From positions 62,001 to 126,000 of the forward strand of contig NZ_JAAKGP010000005.1 of assembly GCF_011043545.1 (NCBI RefSeq): 64,000 nt of DNA. Direction: 5' to 3'. This DNA comes from Rhodobacter sp. SGA-6-6 (GTDB lineage: Bacteria > Pseudomonadota > Alphaproteobacteria > Rhodobacterales > Rhodobacteraceae). Each line of letters begins with the position of its first letter. The stretch's first letter is position 1. Positions 40,290 to 49,960 of the stretch are shown here, piece after piece. A model generated the notes under the pieces. The model was not told the DNA's origin and did not search any database. It saw nothing but the letters and a program-made list of their open reading frames with translations. A program made the position numbers and the translations under genes.

Positions 40290-40676
40290 ATGAAGACCAT
40301 TCTCGCCACGGCCGCGGCCGCCGGTGTCGCGCTTGCCGCCCCGGCCTTCGCCTTCGAGCCGGAATCGGACCAGACCATCAAGCTGATGCAGGCCGACTGG
40401 ACCTCGATGCTGGTCAATACCGAGATCCTGAACATCATCCTGTCGACCTACGGCTATGACGTCGAGAAGGTCATCGCCGACGACAGCGCCCGCTACCCGG
40501 GCTTCGAGAGCAGCGACCTGACCATGGCGGTGGAGACCTGGCAGACCACGCAGGACAAGGCCTCAAAGCCTCGGCCGGCACCGGCAAGGTGCTGGACATA
40601 GGCGAGCTTGGCCCCCACGCCCGCGAAGACTGGTGGTATCCGGCCTATATGGCCGAGCTTTGCCCCGGCCTCAGCC
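40290..40676 (+). pseudogene. Glycine-betaine-type ABC substrate-binding protein, frameshifted and truncated
   Basis: An intact start (GAGGGAGAAAGACC then ATG 40290) and signal peptide MKTILATAAAAGVALAAPAFA are followed by ESDQTIKLMQADWTSML and SSDLTMAVETWQTTQDKA, matching ProX/OpuAC-like proteins. At about 40562 one base is missing: the present frame ends after ARCWT, whereas the +1 frame continues the family with KASAGTGKVLDIGELGPHA and REDWWYPAYM. That continuation ends near 40676, so the C-terminal two-thirds of the protein has been deleted. Confidence 0.8.
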
Positions 40677-40911
40677 CCGTTCTGGAACGCCGCGGTCAGG
40701 TTCATCAATGGCGCTGTCGATGCTGGTCATCGCCGCGCTTGTCGGCACCCGCGAACTGGGGCAGGAGGTCTTCACCTCGCTGTCGCAGGGCCAGCCGGGG
40801 CCGGGGATCACCGCCGGCCTCTGCGTCGCCTGCATCGCGCTGATCGCCGATGCGCTGCTGAAATCCGGCGCGGCCCGTGCCGCAAGACATCAGGGAGAGG
40901 CCCATGCCTGA
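40677..40911 (+). pseudogene. ProW-like betaine permease remnant
   Basis: From about 40710 the frame reads MALSMLVIAALVGTREL and continues GQEVFTSLSQGQPGPGITAGLC and FIAIIAD-like CIALIADALLK, which is the C-terminal end of the ProW/OpuAB permease. A short stretch in another frame at 40677-40710 (PFWNAAVRFIN) resembles the start of such a permease, which suggests that the gene lost its middle. All membrane helices of the channel core except the last two are gone. The stop overlaps the ProV-like start. Confidence 0.7.
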
Positions 40912-41998
40912 CACCGCTTCGCGCCCCGTCGCCCTTTCGGCCGAAGGCGTCTGGAAGGTCTTCGGCACCGACGCCGCCGGTTTCCGCGCCCGCCCCGAAG
41001 CCGAGCGCAGCCCCGAGGCGATGGCCCGCGACCATCTGGTCGGCGCCGTCCGCGACGCCGGGTTCCAGATCGGCCGCGGCGAGGTCTTCGTCATCATGGG
41101 CCTGTCCGGCTCGGGCAAGTCCACTCTCATGCGCTGCCTGACCCGGCTGATCGAACCCTCCGAGGGCCGCATCCTCTTCGACGGGCAGGACATCCTGACC
41201 TTGGGCGAGAAGCCCTTGGCCGAGCTGCGCCGCAAGCGCATGGGCATGGTGTTCCAGCATTTCGCCCTGCTGCCAAACCGCACCGTGCTGGGCAACATCG
41301 CCTTCCCGCTGGAGATGCAGGGCATGGACCGCGACCGCGCCGAGGCCCGCGCGCGGGACCTGGCCGAGGTGGTGGGCCTCACGGGGCGCGAGCACCGCTT
41401 CCCGGCGGAACTGTCGGGCGGCCAGCAGCAGCGCGTCGGCATCGCCCGCTCCCTGACCACTGATCCGGAATTCTGGTTCCTGGACGAGCCCTTCTCGGCG
41501 CTGGATCCGCTGATCCGCGCCGACCTTCAGGCCGAGGTGCAGCGGCTGCAGCAGGAACACACCCGCACCACCATTTTCGTCACCCACGACCTCGACGAGG
41601 CGATCCGGCTGGCCGACCGGGTGGCGATCATGGAAAGCGGCAGGATCGTCCAGATCGGCACGCCCGAGGCGCTGGTGACGAAGCCCGCCACCGACTACTT
41701 CCGCCGCTTCGTCGCCAAGGTGCCGCCGGCGCGGGTGATCCGGGTCTCCTCGCTGATGACGTCGCCGGAAGGAGACATGGCGGGCGAGCCGGTCAGCGCC
41801 GACGCCACCATCGCCGAGATCGCCCCCCGCATCGTCGCCCCCGGCGGGCCGCTGCGCGTGCTGGATGGACAGGCCGCCCGGTCGGCGTGCTGGACCGGCA
41901 AAGCGCGCTGCAGACCTGGCCTCCGGGGTCTGACGCCTGCCGCGAAGGTGCGCGGCAGGCATCGGGTCGGGGCGGCTAGAACAGCGCCGCGGTCTTGA
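40904..41998 (+). CDS. ProV-like glycine-betaine ABC transporter ATP-binding protein with frameshifted C-terminus
   Basis: 364 residues from ATG 40904. The ATPase domain is complete: Walker A MGLSGSGKSTLMRCLTRL, signature ELSGGQQQRVGIARSL and Walker B FWFLDEPFSALDPL, plus the ProV-type N-terminal extension. The C-terminal CBS-like tail breaks near 41872: VLDGQ should continue GRPVGVLDRQSALQ, which is present one frame over, so one G appears to be lost. The old frame would stop at TAG 41977-41979, overlapping the stop of the convergent transporter gene. Its permease partner is destroyed, so it is probably non-functional. Confidence 0.75.
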   Translation: MPDTASRPVALSAEGVWKVFGTDAAGFRARPEAERSPEAMARDHLVGAVRDAGFQIGRGEVFVIMGLSGSGKSTLMRCLTRLIEPSEGRILFDGQDILTLGEKPLAELRRKRMGMVFQHFALLPNRTVLGNIAFPLEMQGMDRDRAEARARDLAEVVGLTGREHRFPAELSGGQQQRVGIARSLTTDPEFWFLDEPFSALDPLIRADLQAEVQRLQQEHTRTTIFVTHDLDEAIRLADRVAIMESGRIVQIGTPEALVTKPATDYFRRFVAKVPPARVIRVSSLMTSPEGDMAGEPVSADATIAEIAPRIVAPGGPLRVLDGQAARSACWTGKARCRPGLRGLTPAAKVRGRHRVGAARTAPRS

Positions 41999-43628
41999 CC
42001 AGCGTATACCAGGCGCCCCAGAGCACCGGGATGCCCACCGCCGCCCAGGCGAGAGCCGTGGTCAGGTCGAAGCGGCCGCGGCCGATGCCGAAGGAGCCGT
42101 GCTCGATGATCGCATCGGCCGAGGCGGTCCTGGCCTGAAGGGCGGCGACCTCTTCGGGCTTCATGAACCACTTGTCCTCCAGCGGCCGCACCAGAGCATT
42201 GGCGATCAGGCCGATCACCAGCATCCCGCAGAGGACATAGATCGTCGCGGCATAGGCATCGGCGCCCGCCAGCCCGCGGTCGACCTGATACTGCCGGATG
42301 TAGTTGACGACCACCGGCCCCAGGATGCCCGCGGTGGCCCAGGCGGTCAGCAGCCGGCCGTGGATCGCGCCGACGAACTGGGTGCCGAAGATGTCGGCGA
42401 GATAGGCCGGCACCGTCGAGAAGCCGCCGCCATACATCGACAGGATGATGCAGAAGGCGGCGACGAACATCAGCTGGTTGCCCATATGCGCGAAGGTGGG
42501 CGCCGAGGCGTAGAGCAGGATGCCGAGGATGAAGAACACGTAATAGGTGTTCTTCCGCCCCAGCCGGTCCGAGATCGAGGCCCAGAAGAACCGCCCCGCG
42601 ATGTTGAACAGCGACAGCAGCGAGGTGAAGCCCGCGGCGATGCCGGCGATCTGCAGCTTCTGGTCGGCGTTCAGCTCGGCGAAGCTCAGCTCCGGCAGGC
42701 CGATCAGGCGGCCGGCGAAGATTTCCTGCAACAGCGGAGAGGCGGCGCCGAGGATGCCGATCCCGGCCGAGACGTTCATGCAAAGCACGATCCAGATCAG
42801 CCAGAACTGCCGGGTCTTGTGCGCGTCGCGCAGGTGGACGTGATGCTCGGTGATCATCGCGCCGGCCTTCTTCGCCGGCGGGGTCCAGCCCTCGGGGCGC
42901 CAGCCGGCCGGCGGGATGCGGTAGCCGAAGGCGCCCGACAGCATGAAGACCAGATAGACTGCCGCCATGACCAGGAAAGTCTCCCACACGCCGGGGGTGG
43001 TGTCGGTCTTGAAGGCCTCCATCAGCTTCTGCGCCAAGGGCGAGCCGACCATGGCGCCGCCGCCGAAGCCCATGATCGCCATGCCGGTCGCCATGCCGCG
43101 CCGGTCGGGGAACCATTTGATCAGGGTTGAGACGGGGGAGATATAGCCGAGGCCAAGGCCGATGCCGCCGATGAAGCCCGCGCCCAGCCACATGAGCCAC
43201 AATTGATGGGTGACGACGCCGAGCGCGGCGATGGCGATGCCGCCGCACCAGCACAGCGCCGAGACGACGCCGGCCTTGCGCGGGCCGACATGCTCCAGCC
43301 AGCCGCCCCAGATCGCGGCGGAAGAACCGAGGAGCAGGAAGAACAGCGTGAACATCCAGCCGAGATCGGCCATGCGCCAGTTGCATTCGGTGGTGAAAAG
43401 CGCGGTCATCAGGCCCATGTCGGCGCAGGCCGCAGGCGTCTCGCCCGGGATGGCGGTGGTCAGCGGCAGCCAGAAGACCGAGAAGCCATAGGCCATGCCG
43501 ATGCAGAGATGGATCGCCAGTGCGGCGGGCGGCACCAGCCAGCGGTTGAACCCGGGGCGCGCCACGATCCTTTCCTTGTCGAGAAGCCCGGCCCGGCCCC
43601 CGGAATATCCTTCGGTGATTGCTGTCAT
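41976..43628 (-). CDS. OFA-family (oxalate/formate antiporter-like) MFS transporter with C-terminal extra helix
   Basis: 550 residues from ATG 43628 behind GGGAGGGAGAG. Twelve MFS helices are recognisable, with the OFA motif GLGLGYISPVSTLIKWFPDRRG after helix 4 and an acid-rich loop between helices 1 and 2 carrying two cysteines. Compared with the usual ~420-430 residues it has an enlarged central loop and a C-terminal thirteenth membrane segment (LAWAAVGIPVLWGAWYTLV). OFA proteins move oxalate, formate or small monocarboxylates. It lies downstream of a sensor kinase/NtrC pair and has its own sigma-54 promoter, so its expression is probably switched by that system. Confidence 0.85.
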   Translation of the reverse strand: MTAITEGYSGGRAGLLDKERIVARPGFNRWLVPPAALAIHLCIGMAYGFSVFWLPLTTAIPGETPAACADMGLMTALFTTECNWRMADLGWMFTLFFLLLGSSAAIWGGWLEHVGPRKAGVVSALCWCGGIAIAALGVVTHQLWLMWLGAGFIGGIGLGLGYISPVSTLIKWFPDRRGMATGMAIMGFGGGAMVGSPLAQKLMEAFKTDTTPGVWETFLVMAAVYLVFMLSGAFGYRIPPAGWRPEGWTPPAKKAGAMITEHHVHLRDAHKTRQFWLIWIVLCMNVSAGIGILGAASPLLQEIFAGRLIGLPELSFAELNADQKLQIAGIAAGFTSLLSLFNIAGRFFWASISDRLGRKNTYYVFFILGILLYASAPTFAHMGNQLMFVAAFCIILSMYGGGFSTVPAYLADIFGTQFVGAIHGRLLTAWATAGILGPVVVNYIRQYQVDRGLAGADAYAATIYVLCGMLVIGLIANALVRPLEDKWFMKPEEVAALQARTASADAIIEHGSFGIGRGRFDLTTALAWAAVGIPVLWGAWYTLVKTAALF

Positions 43629-43743
43629 TCTCTCCCTCCCTTGCCCTCGACGGGGCGATTGGCGAAGGGGTCTTCCGGTGGCTCCATGGCCGCGCTTCGC
43701 GGCCCTCTCCTTCCCCCGGAGACGCTCCCTCATGGGGTAGGTA

Positions 43744-43759
43744 TGCGCAATTCGTGCCA
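43744..43759 (-). promoter_or_regulatory. Sigma-54 (-24/-12) promoter of the OFA transporter gene
   Basis: On the minus strand TGGCACGAATTGCGCA runs from 43759 to 43744. The -24 element TGGCACG is perfect and the GG dinucleotide is separated by 10 bp from the GC of the -12 element, the invariant sigma-54 spacing; only the two T residues of TTGCA are replaced. Predicted start is near 43733, leaving a leader of about 105 nt before ATG 43628. Confidence 0.75.
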
Positions 43760-43812
43760 GCGGATGGCCTTGCGCCTTTTCAACGGGTTGGCGGGATATT
43801 TCCGATCACGCA

Positions 43813-43827
43813 GGGACAGATTGTCCC
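43813..43827. promoter_or_regulatory. Enhancer site 1 for the NtrC-type activator (GGGACA-N3-TGTCCC)
   Basis: A perfect 6-bp inverted repeat around GAT, located about 60 bp upstream of the -24 element. Its centre is 22 bp, two helical turns, from the second copy. Confidence 0.65.
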
Positions 43828-43834
43828 GCAGGCC

Positions 43835-43849
43835 CGGACAGAATGTCCG
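43835..43849. promoter_or_regulatory. Enhancer site 2 for the NtrC-type activator (CGGACA-N3-TGTCCG)
   Basis: A second perfect inverted repeat with the same GGACA-N3-TGTCC core, ending directly at the stop codon of the sensor kinase gene. Two phased copies upstream of a -24/-12 promoter are typical of activator hexamer loading sites. Confidence 0.65.
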
Positions 43850-45799
43850 TCAGTCCGTGGCGGGCAGCCAGAGGGTGAAGGTGGTGCCCTGGCCCTCGGT
43901 GCTGGCCGCAGAGATGTCGCCGCCCTGCCGGTCCACCAGCGTCCGGCAGATCGACAGGCCGAGGCCGGTGCCGCCGCCGTCCGCCCGGGTGGTGAAGAAC
44001 GGCTCGAAGATGCGTGACAGGGTTTCCGCATCCATCCCGCCGCCGGTGTCGGAGACCGCGATCTCTACCCCCGGCACGCCGTTGCGGTCGGCGTCGCTGA
44101 GCCACACCACGATCTCGCCGCCGCCGGGCATGGCATGGACGGCGTTGACGATCAGGTTGACCATCACCTGCTGCAACTCGGTGCGGTTCATCAGCACCTG
44201 CCGGCTGGACTGCCCGTCCTGCCGCAGGGTCACGTCGCTGCGCGTCAAGAGGTGGCGCACCAGCGGCAGGCAGTCGGCCACCGCGTCGCGCGGGTCGGTG
44301 CGGGTGGCCCAGCCGGCATATTCCTCGGGCCGGGCGAATTGCAGCAGGCGGTTGACGATCTGGCTGATCCGCTGGATCTGCTCGTCCATCAGGCGGAACT
44401 CGGTGGCGGCGCGGGCGGCGCCGTCGCCCATGATCTCGCGCAAAAGGTCCAGATTGCCCTGGATCACCGCCACCGGATTGTTGATCTCATGCGCCGCCGC
44501 CGCGGTGATCTCGCCGATGGTGGCCAGCTTTTCCGACACGATCAGCTTGCGCGTGGTTTCCTCGACCCTTGCGTTCAGCTCCTCGTTCCACTGGCGCAGT
44601 TCGGCGTCGCGCTCCTGGATCAGGTCCAGCAGGTGGTCCAGGTGGTCGGCCACGCGCCCCACCTCGTCGCCCCGGCTCTGCACGCCGGTGCGCGCGCCCA
44701 GATCGCCGGCCTCGACCCGGGCGATGGTGCCGCTCATCTTCTCCAGCGGCTGGAAGACGCCGCTGGCCCACTTCAGGAACACCGGGATGGAGACCGCGGT
44801 GACGGCCAGGAAGCCCAGGCCCACCAGCCACAGGGTCGTGCGCTTGGCAGCGGCGAAGGGGGCCTCCAGGAAGCCGACGTAGAGCATCCCCACCCGTTGG
44901 CCTGCCGTGTCGACGATGGGCTCGTAGGCCGAGATATAGCGGTCGTTCACCACGAAGGCGCTGTCGAGCCAGGTCTCGCCCCGGCCCAGGACCTGTTCGC
45001 GCACCTCGGCCGAAACCCTGGTGCCGAGCGCCCGCGTCCCCTCGAACAGGCGGACATTGGTCGAGATGCGCACGTCTTCCAGGAACAGCGTCGCGGTGCC
45101 CGCGCTGCCTTCGGGCAGGCTGCCGGCGCGGTAGACCAGATCGTTGATCGTGTCGATGAAGACGAGGTTCTGGTTCAGCAGCAGCCCGCCCACCAGGATG
45201 CCGGGCCGCCCGTCGGCCAGCGTGACGGGGGCGGCGGAGAGGACGACCATGCCCCGGTCCTCCTCGGTCCGGTCGGTCGGCACGGCATTCGGCGTCGGCA
45301 CCAGCGGCACCCGCGCCCGCGCCGCCAGATCCGGGGACAGAAGCGCGAGATCGGCATTGGCGAAGATCTCGATGCCGGTTCCGGCGCGGCCTTGCAGCAC
45401 GGCCTCGATCAGCGGACCCTTCGGCGCCGGCCGCGCCTCGGCCGGGCTGACCGCGACCGGCCGGCCGGCGGCATCGGCGACATAGAGGAAGTCGAGCGCC
45501 ATCTCCGCCCGCTGCTCCTCCAGGAGCGGCGCGGGATCGGCGGCGGCGGCGAAATCGACCGACCGGCCCAGGGCCTCCACCCGCTCGCCGGTGGTCTCCA
45601 GGATGCGCGCCAGATATTGCCGGGCGACGGTCAGGTCGCTGTTGACCTTGGTCGCCAGCAGGTCGTCGAACTTGCCCTGCCAGCGCAGCATCGTGCCGCC
45701 CAGCAGCAAGGGCAGGATCACCAGCGTCGGCAAGAGCGCGATGGCCAGCAGACGGTGGCGAACCGACCGCGCGCGCGGAGGGGCGGCGCGCTCAGCCAT
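43850..45799 (-). CDS. Membrane sensor histidine kinase (Cache-HAMP-HisKA-HATPase)
   Basis: 649 residues. Membrane helices at about 17-36 and 322-343 flank a periplasmic double-Cache-like sensor domain. A HAMP linker (QPLEKMSGTIARVEAGDLGA) follows, then the H-box AAAAHEINNPVAVIQGNL with phospho-acceptor His437, N-box NLIVNAVHAMPGGGE, and G-boxes DTGGGMD and GGGTGLGLSI. It probably senses an external carboxylate transported by the OFA protein and phosphorylates the NtrC-type partner. Its start overlaps the regulator's stop region by 8 bp. Confidence 0.9.
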   Translation of the reverse strand: MAERAAPPRARSVRHRLLAIALLPTLVILPLLLGGTMLRWQGKFDDLLATKVNSDLTVARQYLARILETTGERVEALGRSVDFAAAADPAPLLEEQRAEMALDFLYVADAAGRPVAVSPAEARPAPKGPLIEAVLQGRAGTGIEIFANADLALLSPDLAARARVPLVPTPNAVPTDRTEEDRGMVVLSAAPVTLADGRPGILVGGLLLNQNLVFIDTINDLVYRAGSLPEGSAGTATLFLEDVRISTNVRLFEGTRALGTRVSAEVREQVLGRGETWLDSAFVVNDRYISAYEPIVDTAGQRVGMLYVGFLEAPFAAAKRTTLWLVGLGFLAVTAVSIPVFLKWASGVFQPLEKMSGTIARVEAGDLGARTGVQSRGDEVGRVADHLDHLLDLIQERDAELRQWNEELNARVEETTRKLIVSEKLATIGEITAAAAHEINNPVAVIQGNLDLLREIMGDGAARAATEFRLMDEQIQRISQIVNRLLQFARPEEYAGWATRTDPRDAVADCLPLVRHLLTRSDVTLRQDGQSSRQVLMNRTELQQVMVNLIVNAVHAMPGGGEIVVWLSDADRNGVPGVEIAVSDTGGGMDAETLSRIFEPFFTTRADGGGTGLGLSICRTLVDRQGGDISAASTEGQGTTFTLWLPATD

Positions 45800-47168
45800 T
45801 CCCGCCCTGAAGCCGCCGGTCGATGGTCTTGCGCGAGATGCCCAGCCGGGCGGCGGCGGCCTCGCGGTCGCCGTCGCAGGCGGCCAGCGCGGCGAGGATC
45901 GCCCTGCGCTCCATCGCTGCCAGCGTCTCGGGCTGGGTCGCCGCCGGTGGGGCCGGGGTCTCCGCGCCGAAGCCGCCGAGGATCAGCGCCCGCTCGATGG
46001 TGTTGCGCAACTCGCGCACATTGCCCGGCCAGCGATAGGCGGCGAAGCCGGCGCGGACCGCCGGCGGGATCGGCACCGCCGGCATCCCCAGCTGGCGCGA
46101 CAGCTTTTCCATGAACAGCGTGGCAAGGTCCTGCACGTCCTCGCCCCTGTCGCAGAGCGGCGGCATGTGGATCGACATCACGTTGATGCGGTAGAGCAGG
46201 TCGGCGCGGAAGCGGCCCTCGGCCACCGCCCGGTTCAAATCGCTGTTGGTGGCGAAGACCAGCCGCACGTCCACCGGCACCTCGCGCTCGGACCCCAGCG
46301 GGCGGATGCGCCGGTCCTCCAGCACCCGCAGCAGCTTGGCCTGCGCGGGCAGCGGCAGTTCGCCGATCTCGTCCAGGAACAAAGTGCCGCCGCGGGCGTG
46401 CAGGAACAGCCCCTCGCGGCTTTGATGCGCGCCGGTGAAAGCGCCCTTCATATGGCCGAACAGCTCGGTCTCCACCATGTCCGGCGGGATCGCGGCGCAG
46501 TTCACCGGCACGAAGGGCCGTGCCGCGCGGGGCGACAGTTCGTGGATCATCCGCGCCGCCACCTCCTTGCCGGTGCCCGACTGCCCGGTCAGCAGCACCG
46601 AGGAGGGAAGCGGCGCGACCCGCCCGATCATGTCGCGGATCGCCTTGATCGCGGGCGATTCGCCGATCAGCTGGTTGCGCAGCAGGATATGGTCGGAACT
46701 GGTCCGCAACTCGTGGCGCAGGACATGGTTCTCGCGCTCCAGCCGGGCGCGCTCCAGGCAGCGGGTGACGGCGTTCAGGATCTGGTTCGACCGGAAGGGC
46801 TTCAAGAGGAAATCCGAGGCCCCGGCCTGCAACGCCTGGATTGCGGTTTCCAGATCGGCATAGGCGGTGATCAGGATCGAGGGCGGGAAATAGCCCGAAG
46901 CCCGCTGCGCCGCCAGCCATTCCACCCCGCGCCGCCCGTCCATCACATTGTCCAGGATCACCACGTCATGATGGCCCGTGGCCAGCATCTCGGCCGCCTG
47001 CGCGGTGTCCGGCGCCGTTTCGACCGAGCGGCAGCGGCTGGCGAGGGTGCGCTGCAGGAAATGCCGCATCCCCGGCTCGTCGTCCACCACCAGGACCGAG
47101 GCCTGGGCCAGCACCTCGCCGAAATCGGCGGCCGGGCCGCGCTCGACCGCCCTGGCTTGCGTCGTCAT
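45792..47168 (-). CDS. Sigma-54-dependent response regulator (NtrC/DctD type)
   Basis: 458 residues from ATG 47168. The receiver domain has acidic pocket VDDEP and phospho-acceptor Asp73 (DVVILDNVMDG). The AAA+ domain has Walker A GQSGTGKE at residues 195-202, the sigma-54 contact loop GAFTGA at 242-247, and Walker B region GGTLFLDEIGE. A Fis-type helix-turn-helix ends the protein (AAAARLGISRKTIDRRL). All features required for sigma-54 activation are present. Likely target is the OFA gene promoter at 43744-43759 via the two palindromes. Confidence 0.9.
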   Translation of the reverse strand: MTTQARAVERGPAADFGEVLAQASVLVVDDEPGMRHFLQRTLASRCRSVETAPDTAQAAEMLATGHHDVVILDNVMDGRRGVEWLAAQRASGYFPPSILITAYADLETAIQALQAGASDFLLKPFRSNQILNAVTRCLERARLERENHVLRHELRTSSDHILLRNQLIGESPAIKAIRDMIGRVAPLPSSVLLTGQSGTGKEVAARMIHELSPRAARPFVPVNCAAIPPDMVETELFGHMKGAFTGAHQSREGLFLHARGGTLFLDEIGELPLPAQAKLLRVLEDRRIRPLGSEREVPVDVRLVFATNSDLNRAVAEGRFRADLLYRINVMSIHMPPLCDRGEDVQDLATLFMEKLSRQLGMPAVPIPPAVRAGFAAYRWPGNVRELRNTIERALILGGFGAETPAPPAATQPETLAAMERRAILAALAACDGDREAAAARLGISRKTIDRRLQGGNG

Positions 47169-47261
47169 GGCTCTCCTTCCGGCGGCCCCTCCCGGCCCCC
47201 TGCGGCCCGGAGCCTTGCATCCCGCGCGCGTCCGGGCAAGCATTCTGTCGGGGGGCAGGGG

Positions 47262-48428
47262 ATGCTGACGACCACACCCAGGACGGGACCGCGGCTGACG
47301 GCGGGGCTTGCGCAGGCGATCTCGCTTCTGTCGCTGACGGCGGGCGAGCTGGCGGTGCGGCTGGCGGTCGAGGCGGCGGGGAATCCGGCGCTGCGGCTGG
47401 TCCCGCCGGCCGAGGGGCCTTGGCGGCCGCTGTTCGACCCCGAGGGCGTGGCGGCGCCCTCGGGCAGCCTGATCGCGCATGTGCTGGCGCAGATCGCGGC
47501 GATGCGGCTTCCTCCGCGCCCGCTTGCCATCGCGCTGGCCCTTGCCGAGGGGCTGGAGCCGACCGGCTGGCTCGGCCCCGCGCCGGCGGCGGTGGCCCGC
47601 GCCTGCGGCGTGGCCGAGGCCGAGGTGCTGGCGGTATTGGCGCGTTTGCAGCGGATCGAGCCGGGCGGGCTGTTCGCGCGCACGCTGGCGGAATGCCTGC
47701 GCCTGCAAGCCGCGGCGGCGGGCGACCTGACCCCGGCGGTCGGCGCGGTGCTGGACCATCTGGCGCTGCTGGCGCGGGGCGACCTGGCCGCCATCGCCCG
47801 GGCGACCGGCCGGCCCGAGGCAGAACTGGCGCAGGCGGCCCGCCTGATCCGCGGTCTGAACCCCAAGCCGGGGCTGGTCTTCGAGGGGCCGATGCCGCCG
47901 CCGCCTCCGCCCGATCTGCTGGCGCGGCGGACCCCGGGCGGCTGGGACGCCGTGGCCAATCCGGCGACGGTCTCGGTCGAGACGGTGCCGGGCCGGGGCG
48001 ATGCCGCCGCGGCGGCCGGGATCGGCCGGGCGGTCGAGCAGCGCAGGCGGGTCGCGGCGATGGTCGGCACGATCCTGCTGCGGCATCAGGCGGGCTGGCT
48101 GGACGGCGGCGACCCCGCGCCGCTGGCGACGCAGGCGCTGGCAGCCGCGGCGGGCCTGCATGTCGCCACCGTGAACCGCCTGCTGCGCGGGATCAGCATC
48201 CGCACTCCGCGCGGCACCCTGCCGCTGCGCGCGCTCGCCCCCCGGCCCGTCCGCCCGGACGGCCCCGCCGCCGAGACCGTGAAGCGGCGCCTGGCCGAGT
48301 TGCTGCGCCACGCCGGAGGGACGCGTCCCAGCGACGCCCGGCTGGCGGCGCAGCTGCAGGCCGAGGGGCTGGCCGTGGCCCGGCGGACGGTGGCGAAGTA
48401 TCGCGCGGCCCTCGGGGGGCGGATCTGA
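47262..48428 (+). CDS. rpoN: Short RNA polymerase sigma-54 factor (RpoN paralogue)
   Basis: 388 residues from ATG 47262, shorter than the usual ~480-500. Region I is recognisable but Ala/Leu-rich (AGLAQAISLLSLTAGELAVR), while the acidic region II is almost missing. The core-binding part contains LNPKPGLVF and the DNA-binding part VSVETVPGRG-like and LHVATVNRLLRGISIRTPRG. The RpoN box ARRTVAKYR is intact at residues 373-381, so promoter recognition should be retained. It is divergent from its NtrC-type partner with only 93 bp between, which suggests a dedicated paralogue rather than the housekeeping rpoN. Confidence 0.85.
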   Translation: MLTTTPRTGPRLTAGLAQAISLLSLTAGELAVRLAVEAAGNPALRLVPPAEGPWRPLFDPEGVAAPSGSLIAHVLAQIAAMRLPPRPLAIALALAEGLEPTGWLGPAPAAVARACGVAEAEVLAVLARLQRIEPGGLFARTLAECLRLQAAAAGDLTPAVGAVLDHLALLARGDLAAIARATGRPEAELAQAARLIRGLNPKPGLVFEGPMPPPPPPDLLARRTPGGWDAVANPATVSVETVPGRGDAAAAAGIGRAVEQRRRVAAMVGTILLRHQAGWLDGGDPAPLATQALAAAAGLHVATVNRLLRGISIRTPRGTLPLRALAPRPVRPDGPAAETVKRRLAELLRHAGGTRPSDARLAAQLQAEGLAVARRTVAKYRAALGGRI

Positions 48429-48443
48429 GCCCGCGCGGACAGC

Positions 48444-48462
48444 CGGCCGGCGCTACCGGCCG
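48444..48462. terminator. Hairpin between convergent rpoN and aldehyde dehydrogenase genes
   Basis: CGGCCGG (48444-48450) pairs with CCGGCCG (48456-48462) around CGCTA. The structure lies 15 bp after the rpoN stop and overlaps the last codons of the opposing gene. It has no T-tract; a bidirectional role is possible. Confidence 0.4.
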
Positions 48463-49883
48463 CGCCGTCCCAGAAGCGCGGCGAGGGTGACATCGGCCAG
48501 TCGGCCGAACGGCGCGCGCAGCAGGCTCGGCATGTTCCAGCGGCCCTGGGCGAAGACGCCCTTGGCGTGGCTCATGGCGCGGAAGCCCTCGATGCCGTGG
48601 TAGGCGCCCATCCCGCTGGCACCGATGCCGCCGAAGGGCAGGTCGTCCTGCGCCACATGGATCAGCGTGCTGTTGATCCCGACATTGCCTGAAGTGGTGC
48701 GGGCCAGCAGCGCCTCGCAATCGGCATCCCGCGGCCCGAACCAGTAAAGCGCCAGCGGGCGCGGGCCGGCGTTCACCTGGGCGATCGCCTCGTCGATGCT
48801 GCGATAGGTCCGCACCGGCAGGAGGGGGCCGAAGACCTCGTCCCGCATCACCGCGCAGTCGTCGCCCGCGCCGAGGATCAGCGTGGGCGCCAGGGTGCGC
48901 GGACGGCCCGCGGCGCTGTCCGGCTTCACGCCCACCTCGATCACCCTTGCGCCCTTGCTCCGGGCCTCCTCGATCAGGGCCTTCAGCCGGTCGAAATGCC
49001 GGTCGCTGACGATGGAGGTATAATCCGCGCCGGTCGGCCCCTCGGGGTAGAAGCGGGCGACAGTGGCGCCGTAGAGCGTCACGAAGGCGTCCAGGTCGTC
49101 CTCGTGCACCAGCGCGTAATCCGGCGCCACGCAGGTCTGGCCGGCGTTCGACAGCTTGCCGAAGACGATGCTGCCCAGCGTGGCCGCGTCTGCATGGCCG
49201 CGGGCGACGATGGCCGGGCTCTTGCCGCCCAGTTCCAGCGTCACCGGCACCAGATTGGCGCTGGCCGCCTGCATGACCTTGCGCCCCACCGCGGTGCTGC
49301 CGGTGAAGAACAGATGGTCGAAGGGCAGGGCGCTGAAGGCCGCCCCGGTCTCGGGTCCGCCGAGGATGGTGGCGACCTCCTCGGGCGGAAAGGCCGCGGC
49401 CAGCAGGTCGCGAAGCGCCGCGCCGGTGCGCGGGGTGAATTCCGAGGGCTTCAGCATCGCCCGGTTGCCGGCGGCCAGCGCGGTGGCCAGCGGAATCAGG
49501 GTCAGCGCGACGGGATAGTTCCAGGGCGCCATCACGCCGATCACGCCCTTGGGCTGGTATTCCACCCAGGCCCGGCCGCTGCGGTAGGTCAGCGCCACAT
49601 GCCGGCGGTCCGGCCGCATGAAGCGGCGCAGCCTGCGGGTCAGGTAGTCGATGGCCTGCACCACGACGACCAGTTCCAGGATGTCGGTCTCGTGCCGCGA
49701 GCGGTGGCCGAAATCCGCGTCGACCGCCTGCTGCAGGGTGCGCCGATGCGCCAGCACCGCGGCGCGCAGCCGTTTCAGCCGCTGCCGGCGCAGGGCCAGG
49801 CCGGGCGGCCCGTCGCGGAGGAAGGCGCTGCGCTGGCGGTCGAGCAGCGCCGCCATGGCGGGGGTCTGGTCTTCGGTGGTCAC
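48453..49883 (-). CDS. Coniferyl-aldehyde-dehydrogenase-like aldehyde dehydrogenase
   Basis: 476 residues from GTG 49883, which follows GGAG at a suitable distance. Conserved blocks are GVIGVMAPWNYPVALTLIPL, FFTGSTAVGRKVM, the general-base region ELGGKSP and the catalytic cysteine in SNAGQTCVAPDYAL. The short C-terminus and the GNVGINSTLIHVAQ block match the coniferyl aldehyde dehydrogenase (CalB) subgroup, which also oxidises aliphatic aldehydes. It is 77 bp downstream of the DUF924 gene in the same direction and may belong to that operon. Confidence 0.8.
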   Translation of the reverse strand: MTTEDQTPAMAALLDRQRSAFLRDGPPGLALRRQRLKRLRAAVLAHRRTLQQAVDADFGHRSRHETDILELVVVVQAIDYLTRRLRRFMRPDRRHVALTYRSGRAWVEYQPKGVIGVMAPWNYPVALTLIPLATALAAGNRAMLKPSEFTPRTGAALRDLLAAAFPPEEVATILGGPETGAAFSALPFDHLFFTGSTAVGRKVMQAASANLVPVTLELGGKSPAIVARGHADAATLGSIVFGKLSNAGQTCVAPDYALVHEDDLDAFVTLYGATVARFYPEGPTGADYTSIVSDRHFDRLKALIEEARSKGARVIEVGVKPDSAAGRPRTLAPTLILGAGDDCAVMRDEVFGPLLPVRTYRSIDEAIAQVNAGPRPLALYWFGPRDADCEALLARTTSGNVGINSTLIHVAQDDLPFGGIGASGMGAYHGIEGFRAMSHAKGVFAQGRWNMPSLLRAPFGRLADVTLAALLGRRGR

Positions 49884-49960
49884 GTCGCATCTCCGGCAAG
49901 CTCCGGCCATCATCTCACCCCTCGGCCCGGCCGGACAGCCCCCGCTTGTCCCGGGGTTTC

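Follow-up and report, generated by a model that had tools for sequence, protein, structure and literature searches.

A candidate portable sigma-54 transport switch with a specialised sigma factor in Rhodobacter sp. SGA-6-6

A four-gene locus in Rhodobacter sp. SGA-6-6 appears from sequence comparison to be a sigma-54 transport switch that is portable and includes a sigma factor specialised for it, a reading to which we give a probability of about 0.68. The locus lies in a stretch of 64,000 nucleotides (nt), hereafter the window (assembly GCF_011043545.1, contig NZ_JAAKGP010000005.1, positions 62,001-126,000; coordinates below are window positions unless another locus is named), and spans 41976-48428. 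It encodes a paralogue of the sigma-54 factor RpoN (47262-48428, plus strand) and, on the minus strand, an NtrC-type response regulator (45792-47168), a sensor histidine kinase (43850-45799) and an OFA-type MFS transporter (41976-43628). A first-pass annotation had proposed these four genes, and all four are located there. The kinase and regulator genes overlap by 8 base pairs (bp), and a divergent spacer of 93 bp (47169-47261), in which a consensus scan found no sigma-70-like promoter, separates the regulator gene from rpoN.

The regulator (458 amino acids, aa) has REC, AAA+ and Fis-type helix-turn-helix (HTH; HTH_8) domains in Pfam, and the GAFTGA loop of its AAA+ domain is intact, reading ELFGHMKGAFTGA. 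The kinase (649 aa) has sCache_3_3, HAMP, HisKA and HATPase_c domains, in agreement with the Cache-HAMP architecture first proposed. The RpoN paralogue (388 aa) has a putative activator-interacting region and the core-binding and DNA-binding domains, and the intact RpoN box that had been claimed for it is present as ARRTVAKYR; the assignment draws on Pfam, AlphaFold2 and a phylogenetic tree. For the transporter (550 aa), the ATG behind GGGAGGGAGAG was taken as the start in place of the start of the mechanical open reading frame at 43733.

The same four genes occur in G433, a genome from another genus of Rhodobacteraceae. The alignment covers 6450 bases at 88.5% identity and corresponds to 41974-48414 of the window. 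It begins just past the transporter stop codon and ends about 12 bases before the rpoN stop, so that both edges fall within 15 bp of the outer stop codons. Within the 18-kb stretches compared, no alignment was found beyond those edges, and the genes predicted next to the block are not the same in the two genomes. The rpoN gene is the most divergent of the four (85% identity, against 93-95% for the others). Ratios of nonsynonymous to synonymous substitution (dN/dS) between the two genomes are 0.10 for the regulator, 0.13 for the kinase, 0.10 for the transporter and 0.19 for rpoN, and purifying selection acts on the cassette rpoN. Because the same four genes recur at 85-95% identity and dN/dS of 0.10-0.19, their co-occurrence by chance is unlikely. 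The presence of the whole unit in a second genus amid unrelated neighbours suggests that it moves and works as one package. By sequence, such a block common to two genera is stronger evidence for a unit than that available to the first-pass annotation.

The proposal that activator, sigma factor and target are all local is supported by the sequence before the transporter gene. Between the kinase and transporter genes, on the minus strand, are two activator-type sites recognized by sequence pattern, the distal GGACATTCTGTCC (43836-43848) and the proximal GGACAATCTGTCC (43814-43826), which are exact GGACAN3TGTCC palindromes 22 bp apart. The proximal site lies 54 nt before a candidate -24/-12 site, TGGCACGAATTGCGCA (43744-43759). 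As a sequence match, this site has TGG at -24, GC at -12 and the GG-N10-GC frame, with GC replacing TT at -15/-14. The two operators are the only exact GGACAN3TGTCC sites in the window. The genome has 8 such places, compared with 1 in a reversed control, and the transporter pair is the only close pair; the six further places are single. No sigma-70-like promoter was found by a consensus scan of 41800-48700.

This arrangement is conserved. The operators recur in G433, with a single mismatch in the second, as does a -24/-12 site, which there reads TGGCACGAATTGTGCA. Seven loci outside the family (L185-L188, L198, L202 and L204) have the same operators and a TGGCA-N6-TTGC site before the transporter. 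In eight of the nine loci compared, window and G433 included, the two operators are spaced by 22-23 bp, and the distance from the end of the second to the promoter is 52-54 nt. The exception is L188 (42 and 67), whose transporter sits in another branch of the transporter tree. Four further loci, L189-L191 and L203, were left out of this comparison because no transporter follows the kinase; in L203 (Methylorubrum) the transporter precedes the regulator, the loop reads GAFTSA and no -24/-12 pattern was marked. Both cassette promoters have G for T at -15, and the window has C at -14 as well, where the seven outside loci have TT, so that the -12 element reads TTGC in the relatives, GCGC in the window and GTGC in G433.

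A larger regulon in the same genome was considered and rejected: the cassette-type pattern has two matches there, of which one is the transporter site and the other falls within a predicted gene, compared with three in the reversed control. In G433 the count is six compared with one; four of the six fall within predicted genes, one is the transporter site and one (L246) lies 57 nt ahead of a predicted frame of 99 aa. The canonical form TGGCAC-N5-TTGC has a single match in the window's genome, inside a predicted gene.

The sigma factor itself is a divergent member of the sigma-54 family rather than the standard equivalog, scoring 191.5 bits against the NCBIfam model TIGR02395, below its cut-off of 277.35. 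The core-binding domain (113.2 bits, Pfam cut-off 22.9) and the DNA-binding domain (75 bits, cut-off 22.8) are clear, and the activator-interacting domain falls just short (21.6 bits, cut-off 23.8). Region I aligns with solved sigma-54 without a gap, yet with a negative score in phmmer. The AlphaFold2 model has a mean confidence (pLDDT) of 89.8 and has 31 matches at E <= 0.001 among the sigma-54 chains in solved structures, the top match being sigma-N in a polymerase complex (E 7.9e-23), and the predicted fold is that of a complete sigma-54. The protein had been called short, and this is right as to its length and agrees with its TIGR02395 score; a missing domain is contradicted by the full sigma-54 model.

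In phylogenetic analysis the window RpoN is a separate, long-diverged paralogue. A first tree held 90 different rows of 111, and a careful tree was built from 61 of those 90 after 22 rows of the outgroup and seven others that were long or unstable had been left out. In the careful tree the window and G433 proteins form one clade (support 100/100) with a stem of 1.49 changes per column. This clade is sister (98/89) to 29 Rhodobacteraceae RpoNs, among them a second RpoN encoded on contig C12 of the same genome. The window RpoN departs from 44 other RpoNs at nine of 68 columns that are conserved in at least 90% of them. Two of the departures, S302A and S305N, are common to both cassette copies and lie beside R306 in the HTH helix, which we take to be the helix that reads the -12 element. 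Serine occupies both columns in 41 of the 44 others, and the R306 column is arginine in all 44. The helix reads HVATVNR in the window, HIATVNR in G433 and HESTVSR in most others. Given the altered -12 elements, the helix and the promoter may have changed together.

Close relatives of this RpoN are very rare. In a survey of 394 family genomes, in which up to four candidates per genome were scored for RpoN and for the regulator, the only close relative was that of G433 (85%), with the next best at 48%; this survey misses some rpoN genes that the Pfam model PF04552 finds (e.g. in G015, G042 and G043). The window type occurs in none of 12 other genomes of the same genus, and plasmid records held no relative closer than 38.5%. 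Among the matches listed, the one named relative is a distant hit in Palleronia pelagia (33%). There (L075, 9001-11721), a gene for a GAFTGA-bearing activator directly follows rpoN.

The regulator is more widespread. Of the 394 family genomes, 96 have homologues at E <= 1e-90, and 99 places other than the window's own were compared. GAFTGA is lost or altered at 82 of these places (a class that takes in near forms such as GAFPSA, GSFPGA, NAFTGA and GAFAGA), GAFPGA-like at 15 and intact at two; where identity is only 40-45%, the protein is probably a different regulator rather than an orthologue, and some stretches stop at contig ends. One intact place, in G016 (45% identity), has neither kinase nor transporter nearby. 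The other is G433. Of the 99 fetched stretches, this one alone contains an rpoN match, and it is the only one that combines intact GAFTGA with linked kinase, transporter and rpoN. A count of 33 of 60 regulator loci in genomes without rpoN is an upper bound and is not relied on. In a class-wide sample the regulator was found at E <= 1e-95 in 10 of 385 genomes, three of them Rhodobacteraceae, and it is therefore sparse outside that family; one further genome sample recurs from the RpoN survey and is not independent of it. Of 11 outside-family loci fetched, ten keep GAFTGA, all but L203, and none shows rpoN in its stretch. Other alphaproteobacterial families thus have the kinase-regulator-transporter trio but, in the stretches fetched, no rpoN next to it, which makes the sigma factor look like a later gain by a switch that already existed.

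Seven of nine GAFTGA-less loci with kinase and transporter were viewed (L121, L131, L145, L150, L156, L166 and L168; L258 and L274 were left out), and by eye all seven show operators of the same kind followed by TTGAC-type -35 boxes. This agrees with published NtrC proteins that lack GAFTGA and act with sigma-70 (PMC10274813). Nine other GAFTGA-less loci (L111, L112, L130, L132, L133, L134, L136, L138 and L152) have a lone GGACAN3TGTCC about 7-8 kb from the regulator gene, a pattern that suggests another conserved target gene in Rhodobacteraceae.

The history of the unit can be partly read from a plasmid of Shinella sp. H4-D48. Plasmid p2 has the same cluster order, without rpoN and an aldehyde dehydrogenase gene; in the window these two genes sit between the DUF924 and regulator genes. 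Identities are 59% for a LysR protein, 81% for a short-chain dehydrogenase/reductase (SDR), 82% for a cation/proton antiporter, 67% for DUF924, 66% for the regulator, 65% for the kinase and 76% for the transporter. The stretch of the window without a DNA match in this collinear locus (47113-49959) holds rpoN, the aldehyde dehydrogenase gene and the regulator's first codons. The transporter tree groups window and G433 with Shinella (88/96, not starred and under a long-branch warning). The regulator tree, made by a quick method with the second regulator copies of Paracoccus left out, groups them with GAFPGA rows of Paracoccus and others (97*) and needs three changes of the GAFTGA label. The two trees thus disagree on the nearest outside relative of the cassette. 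The simplest history suggested by these sequences is that rpoN was gained beside the regulator and that the four genes were then transferred between the lineages of the window and G433. Probably a kinase-regulator-transporter cluster of the Rhizobiaceae kind, without its own rpoN, gained a Rhodobacteraceae-type rpoN at the 5' side of the regulator. Such a gain would have brought independence from the host's sigma-54, in a family whose homologous regulators have mostly lost the sigma-54 loop.

The window rpoN is not the only one in its genome. A whole-genome search for a second rpoN, which the first-pass annotation had proposed, found two PF04552 places: a 444-aa frame on C12 (164.5 bits) and the window gene (77.8 bits). 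PF00158 matches 12 times; among the seven strongest matches, which were inspected and represent six proteins, at least two of the six proteins have GAFTGA or GSFTGA, namely the window regulator and one on contig C23. The genome may therefore hold two sigma-54 factors and two working activators. The second activator gene (L193, 8298-9755) encodes a REC-like N-terminus and GSFTGA, lies beside an NAD-kinase-like gene and resembles AprX as described in PMC11999139. The C12 rpoN (L192, 6674-10069) and one RpoN gene of G103 (L206, 7218-10730) each adjoin a gene with a similar hydantoinase-like start, as judged by eye, and this is likely a conserved pairing. G103 has four RpoNs, and two of the neighbourhoods look flagellar and nif-like, which suggests that this genome is a Cereibacter. 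With three or four rpoN matches in several family genomes (G002, G437 and G103), RpoN paralogy is broader than one species.

A working model can be proposed from these features. The periplasmic sCache domain would detect a signal from outside, in all likelihood a small carboxylate, and the kinase would phosphorylate the regulator. The regulator would then assemble on the GGACAN3TGTCC pair, which lies about 85-110 bp upstream of the predicted start, and by means of its GAFTGA loop and hydrolysis of adenosine triphosphate (ATP) would open complexes of RNA polymerase and the neighbouring RpoN at TGGCACGAATTGCGCA, switching on the transporter. In a bolder version the locus is a mobile, self-sufficient and orthogonal circuit, in which an altered helix is matched to an altered -12 element to form a private channel for a single transporter and which moves between genera as a unit; this version is tentative, and somewhat likelier to fail than to hold.

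The first-pass annotation had assigned the switch to carboxylate uptake. Its interpretation is partly supported: the second rpoN, the separate paralogue, the promoter sites and the shared block are in line with the dedicated sigma factor it proposed, and on the substrate side the nearest family models stay below their cut-offs. The best of these for the transporter is the NCBIfam model for the L-lactate transporter SfMCT (306.6 bits, below its cut-off of 320), and the oxalate/formate antiport family TIGR00890 (156.1 bits, cut-off 374.85) and TIGR04259 (120.3 bits, cut-off 335) are further from theirs; the only NCBIfam model passed is a small tail domain, NF047966 (25.7 against 24). A substrate assignment from family models was therefore dropped. 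The nearest solved relatives are SfMCT (E 4.1e-24) and the oxalate:formate antiporter OxlT (E 1.2e-16). The OFA MFS label is thus supported by similarity to solved structures, while no curated family or equivalog cut-off is reached and the closest model is for L-lactate rather than oxalate or formate. The sCache domain of the kinase has weak matches to two chemoreceptor ligand-binding chains (8py0 and 8py1; E 3e-4), and a literature search on those structures found no relevant paper.

Several observations weigh against the proposed switch. The use of sigma-54 at the transporter promoter is a prediction from sequence. For the loose pattern TGGCACNNNNNTTGCW, the window has 17 matches where 25 are expected; enrichment of sigma-54-like sites is thus rejected, and it is position and conservation that carry the promoter argument. 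Of 20,000 single-base shuffles of the spacer sequence, 143 contain a perfect TGGCAC-N7-GC. The cassette was found a second time in G433 only, so that the reading as a unit rests on a single pair, and the link between helix and promoter likewise on two related copies. By a like count, three of the 44 other RpoNs equal or exceed the window protein in departures from conserved columns (10-12 of 71-73). Lastly, the C12 RpoN carries the same RpoN box, ARRTVAKYR, and might serve the cassette promoter.

This last point leads to the main rival, in which the transporter is sigma-54 dependent but served by the C12 RpoN, while the local rpoN works elsewhere or redundantly. The unchanged RpoN box speaks for it, as do the collinear outside-family relatives, which share the sites although the stretches fetched contain no rpoN. 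The intergenic site at L246 in G433 may also mean that the cassette RpoN has other targets there. However, only four genes are common to the window and G433, and rpoN is one of them; in Rhodobacteraceae an intact GAFTGA with linked kinase and transporter is found only where rpoN is linked too; the cassette promoter departs from the TTGC form of the relatives; and no other intergenic cassette-type site was found in the window's own genome. We consider this rival unlikely, though it is the strongest of those weighed. It is very unlikely that the housekeeping polymerase reads the transporter, as it appears to in the family counterparts with their TTGAC-type boxes and GAFTGA-less regulators (a kind of NtrC protein that acts with sigma-70; PMC10274813), and that the sigma-54 features are relics. 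GAFTGA is indeed not intact at 97 of the 99 other family places, but it is retained together with the -24/-12 site in two genera, the consensus scan shows no sigma-70-like promoter, and purifying selection acts on rpoN. Least probable of all is that rpoN is a decaying duplicate carried along by chance. Its divergence within the cassette, its very long stem and its nine departures could be taken in that sense, but a dN/dS of 0.19, a frame unbroken in two genera and a confident full sigma-54 model argue otherwise. The specialised sigma factor within a portable switch is the explanation that we retain.

At its transporter end the cassette adjoins an apparent remnant of a choline/betaine-type ATP-binding cassette (ABC) transporter (40290-41998). 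It consists of a 103-aa fragment of the binding protein, followed by a short frame whose sequence looks membrane-like, and a gene for an ATPase, whose match to the proV model spans positions 8-245 of 363.

As a rule, sigma-54 systems depend on a single housekeeping RpoN, and the locus bears on the question of how RpoN paralogues come by promoter and activator partners of their own. In the window a paralogue, an activator, a kinase, an operator pair, a promoter and the only apparent target lie within 6.4 kb, while relatives lack their own rpoN or have dropped the sigma-54 loop. A single-gene swap could therefore put the gain of a dedicated sigma factor to the test, and the parts form a compact set whose promoter recognition may be separate. 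The kinase-regulator-transporter trio is of a known kind, and paralogous RpoNs with private activators are also known. In the literature searched, mostly without subscription papers and in part only, no description was found of rpoN linked to a kinase-regulator-OFA cluster. As far as searched, a contiguous block that joins sigma factor, kinase, activator and target and is common to two genera is apparently undescribed.

Among known systems, those of the DctBD/MifSR type couple carboxylate sensing by a kinase and an NtrC-type regulator to a sigma-54-dependent transporter, as proposed here; unlike the present locus, they use the cell's general, unlinked RpoN and other transporter families. The clusters of Shinella, Rhizobium sp. 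SL42 and Sinorhizobium sojae (L198, L202 and L204) share the order of three genes, the operator pair with its spacing and the promoter position. They differ in having no rpoN in the stretches fetched and a promoter that ends in TTGC, which is presumably served by the host's general RpoN. Paracoccus relatives (L195-L197 and L199) have a homologous regulator, kinase and transporter with GGACAN3TGTCC sites, but GAFPGA in place of GAFTGA, no -24/-12 pattern before the transporter and no linked rpoN. On plasmid 1 of Paracoccus denitrificans PD1222 (L201, 1-8795), a paralogue of rpoN again has an activator gene of the sigma-54 type in its vicinity, together with catabolic genes. There rpoN lies beside an acetoin catabolic operon, with TGGCACGCTTGTTGCT between the two and the activator gene at the far end. 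The activator and pathway are different, no kinase gene is present in the annotated stretch, and the tree position of this RpoN is unsure on account of its long branch; it is possibly a second case of a local sigma-54 module. Cereibacter (Rhodobacter) sphaeroides, like the present genome, has several sigma-54 factors per cell, and each one studied is tied to a particular activator (RpoN1 to NifA, RpoN2 to FleQ and RpoN3 to AprX; PMC11999139). RpoN1 and RpoN2 differ in their recognition of -11, and no kinase is encoded near aprX. In the window, unlike in C. sphaeroides, sigma factor, activator, kinase and target form one contiguous block common to two genera.

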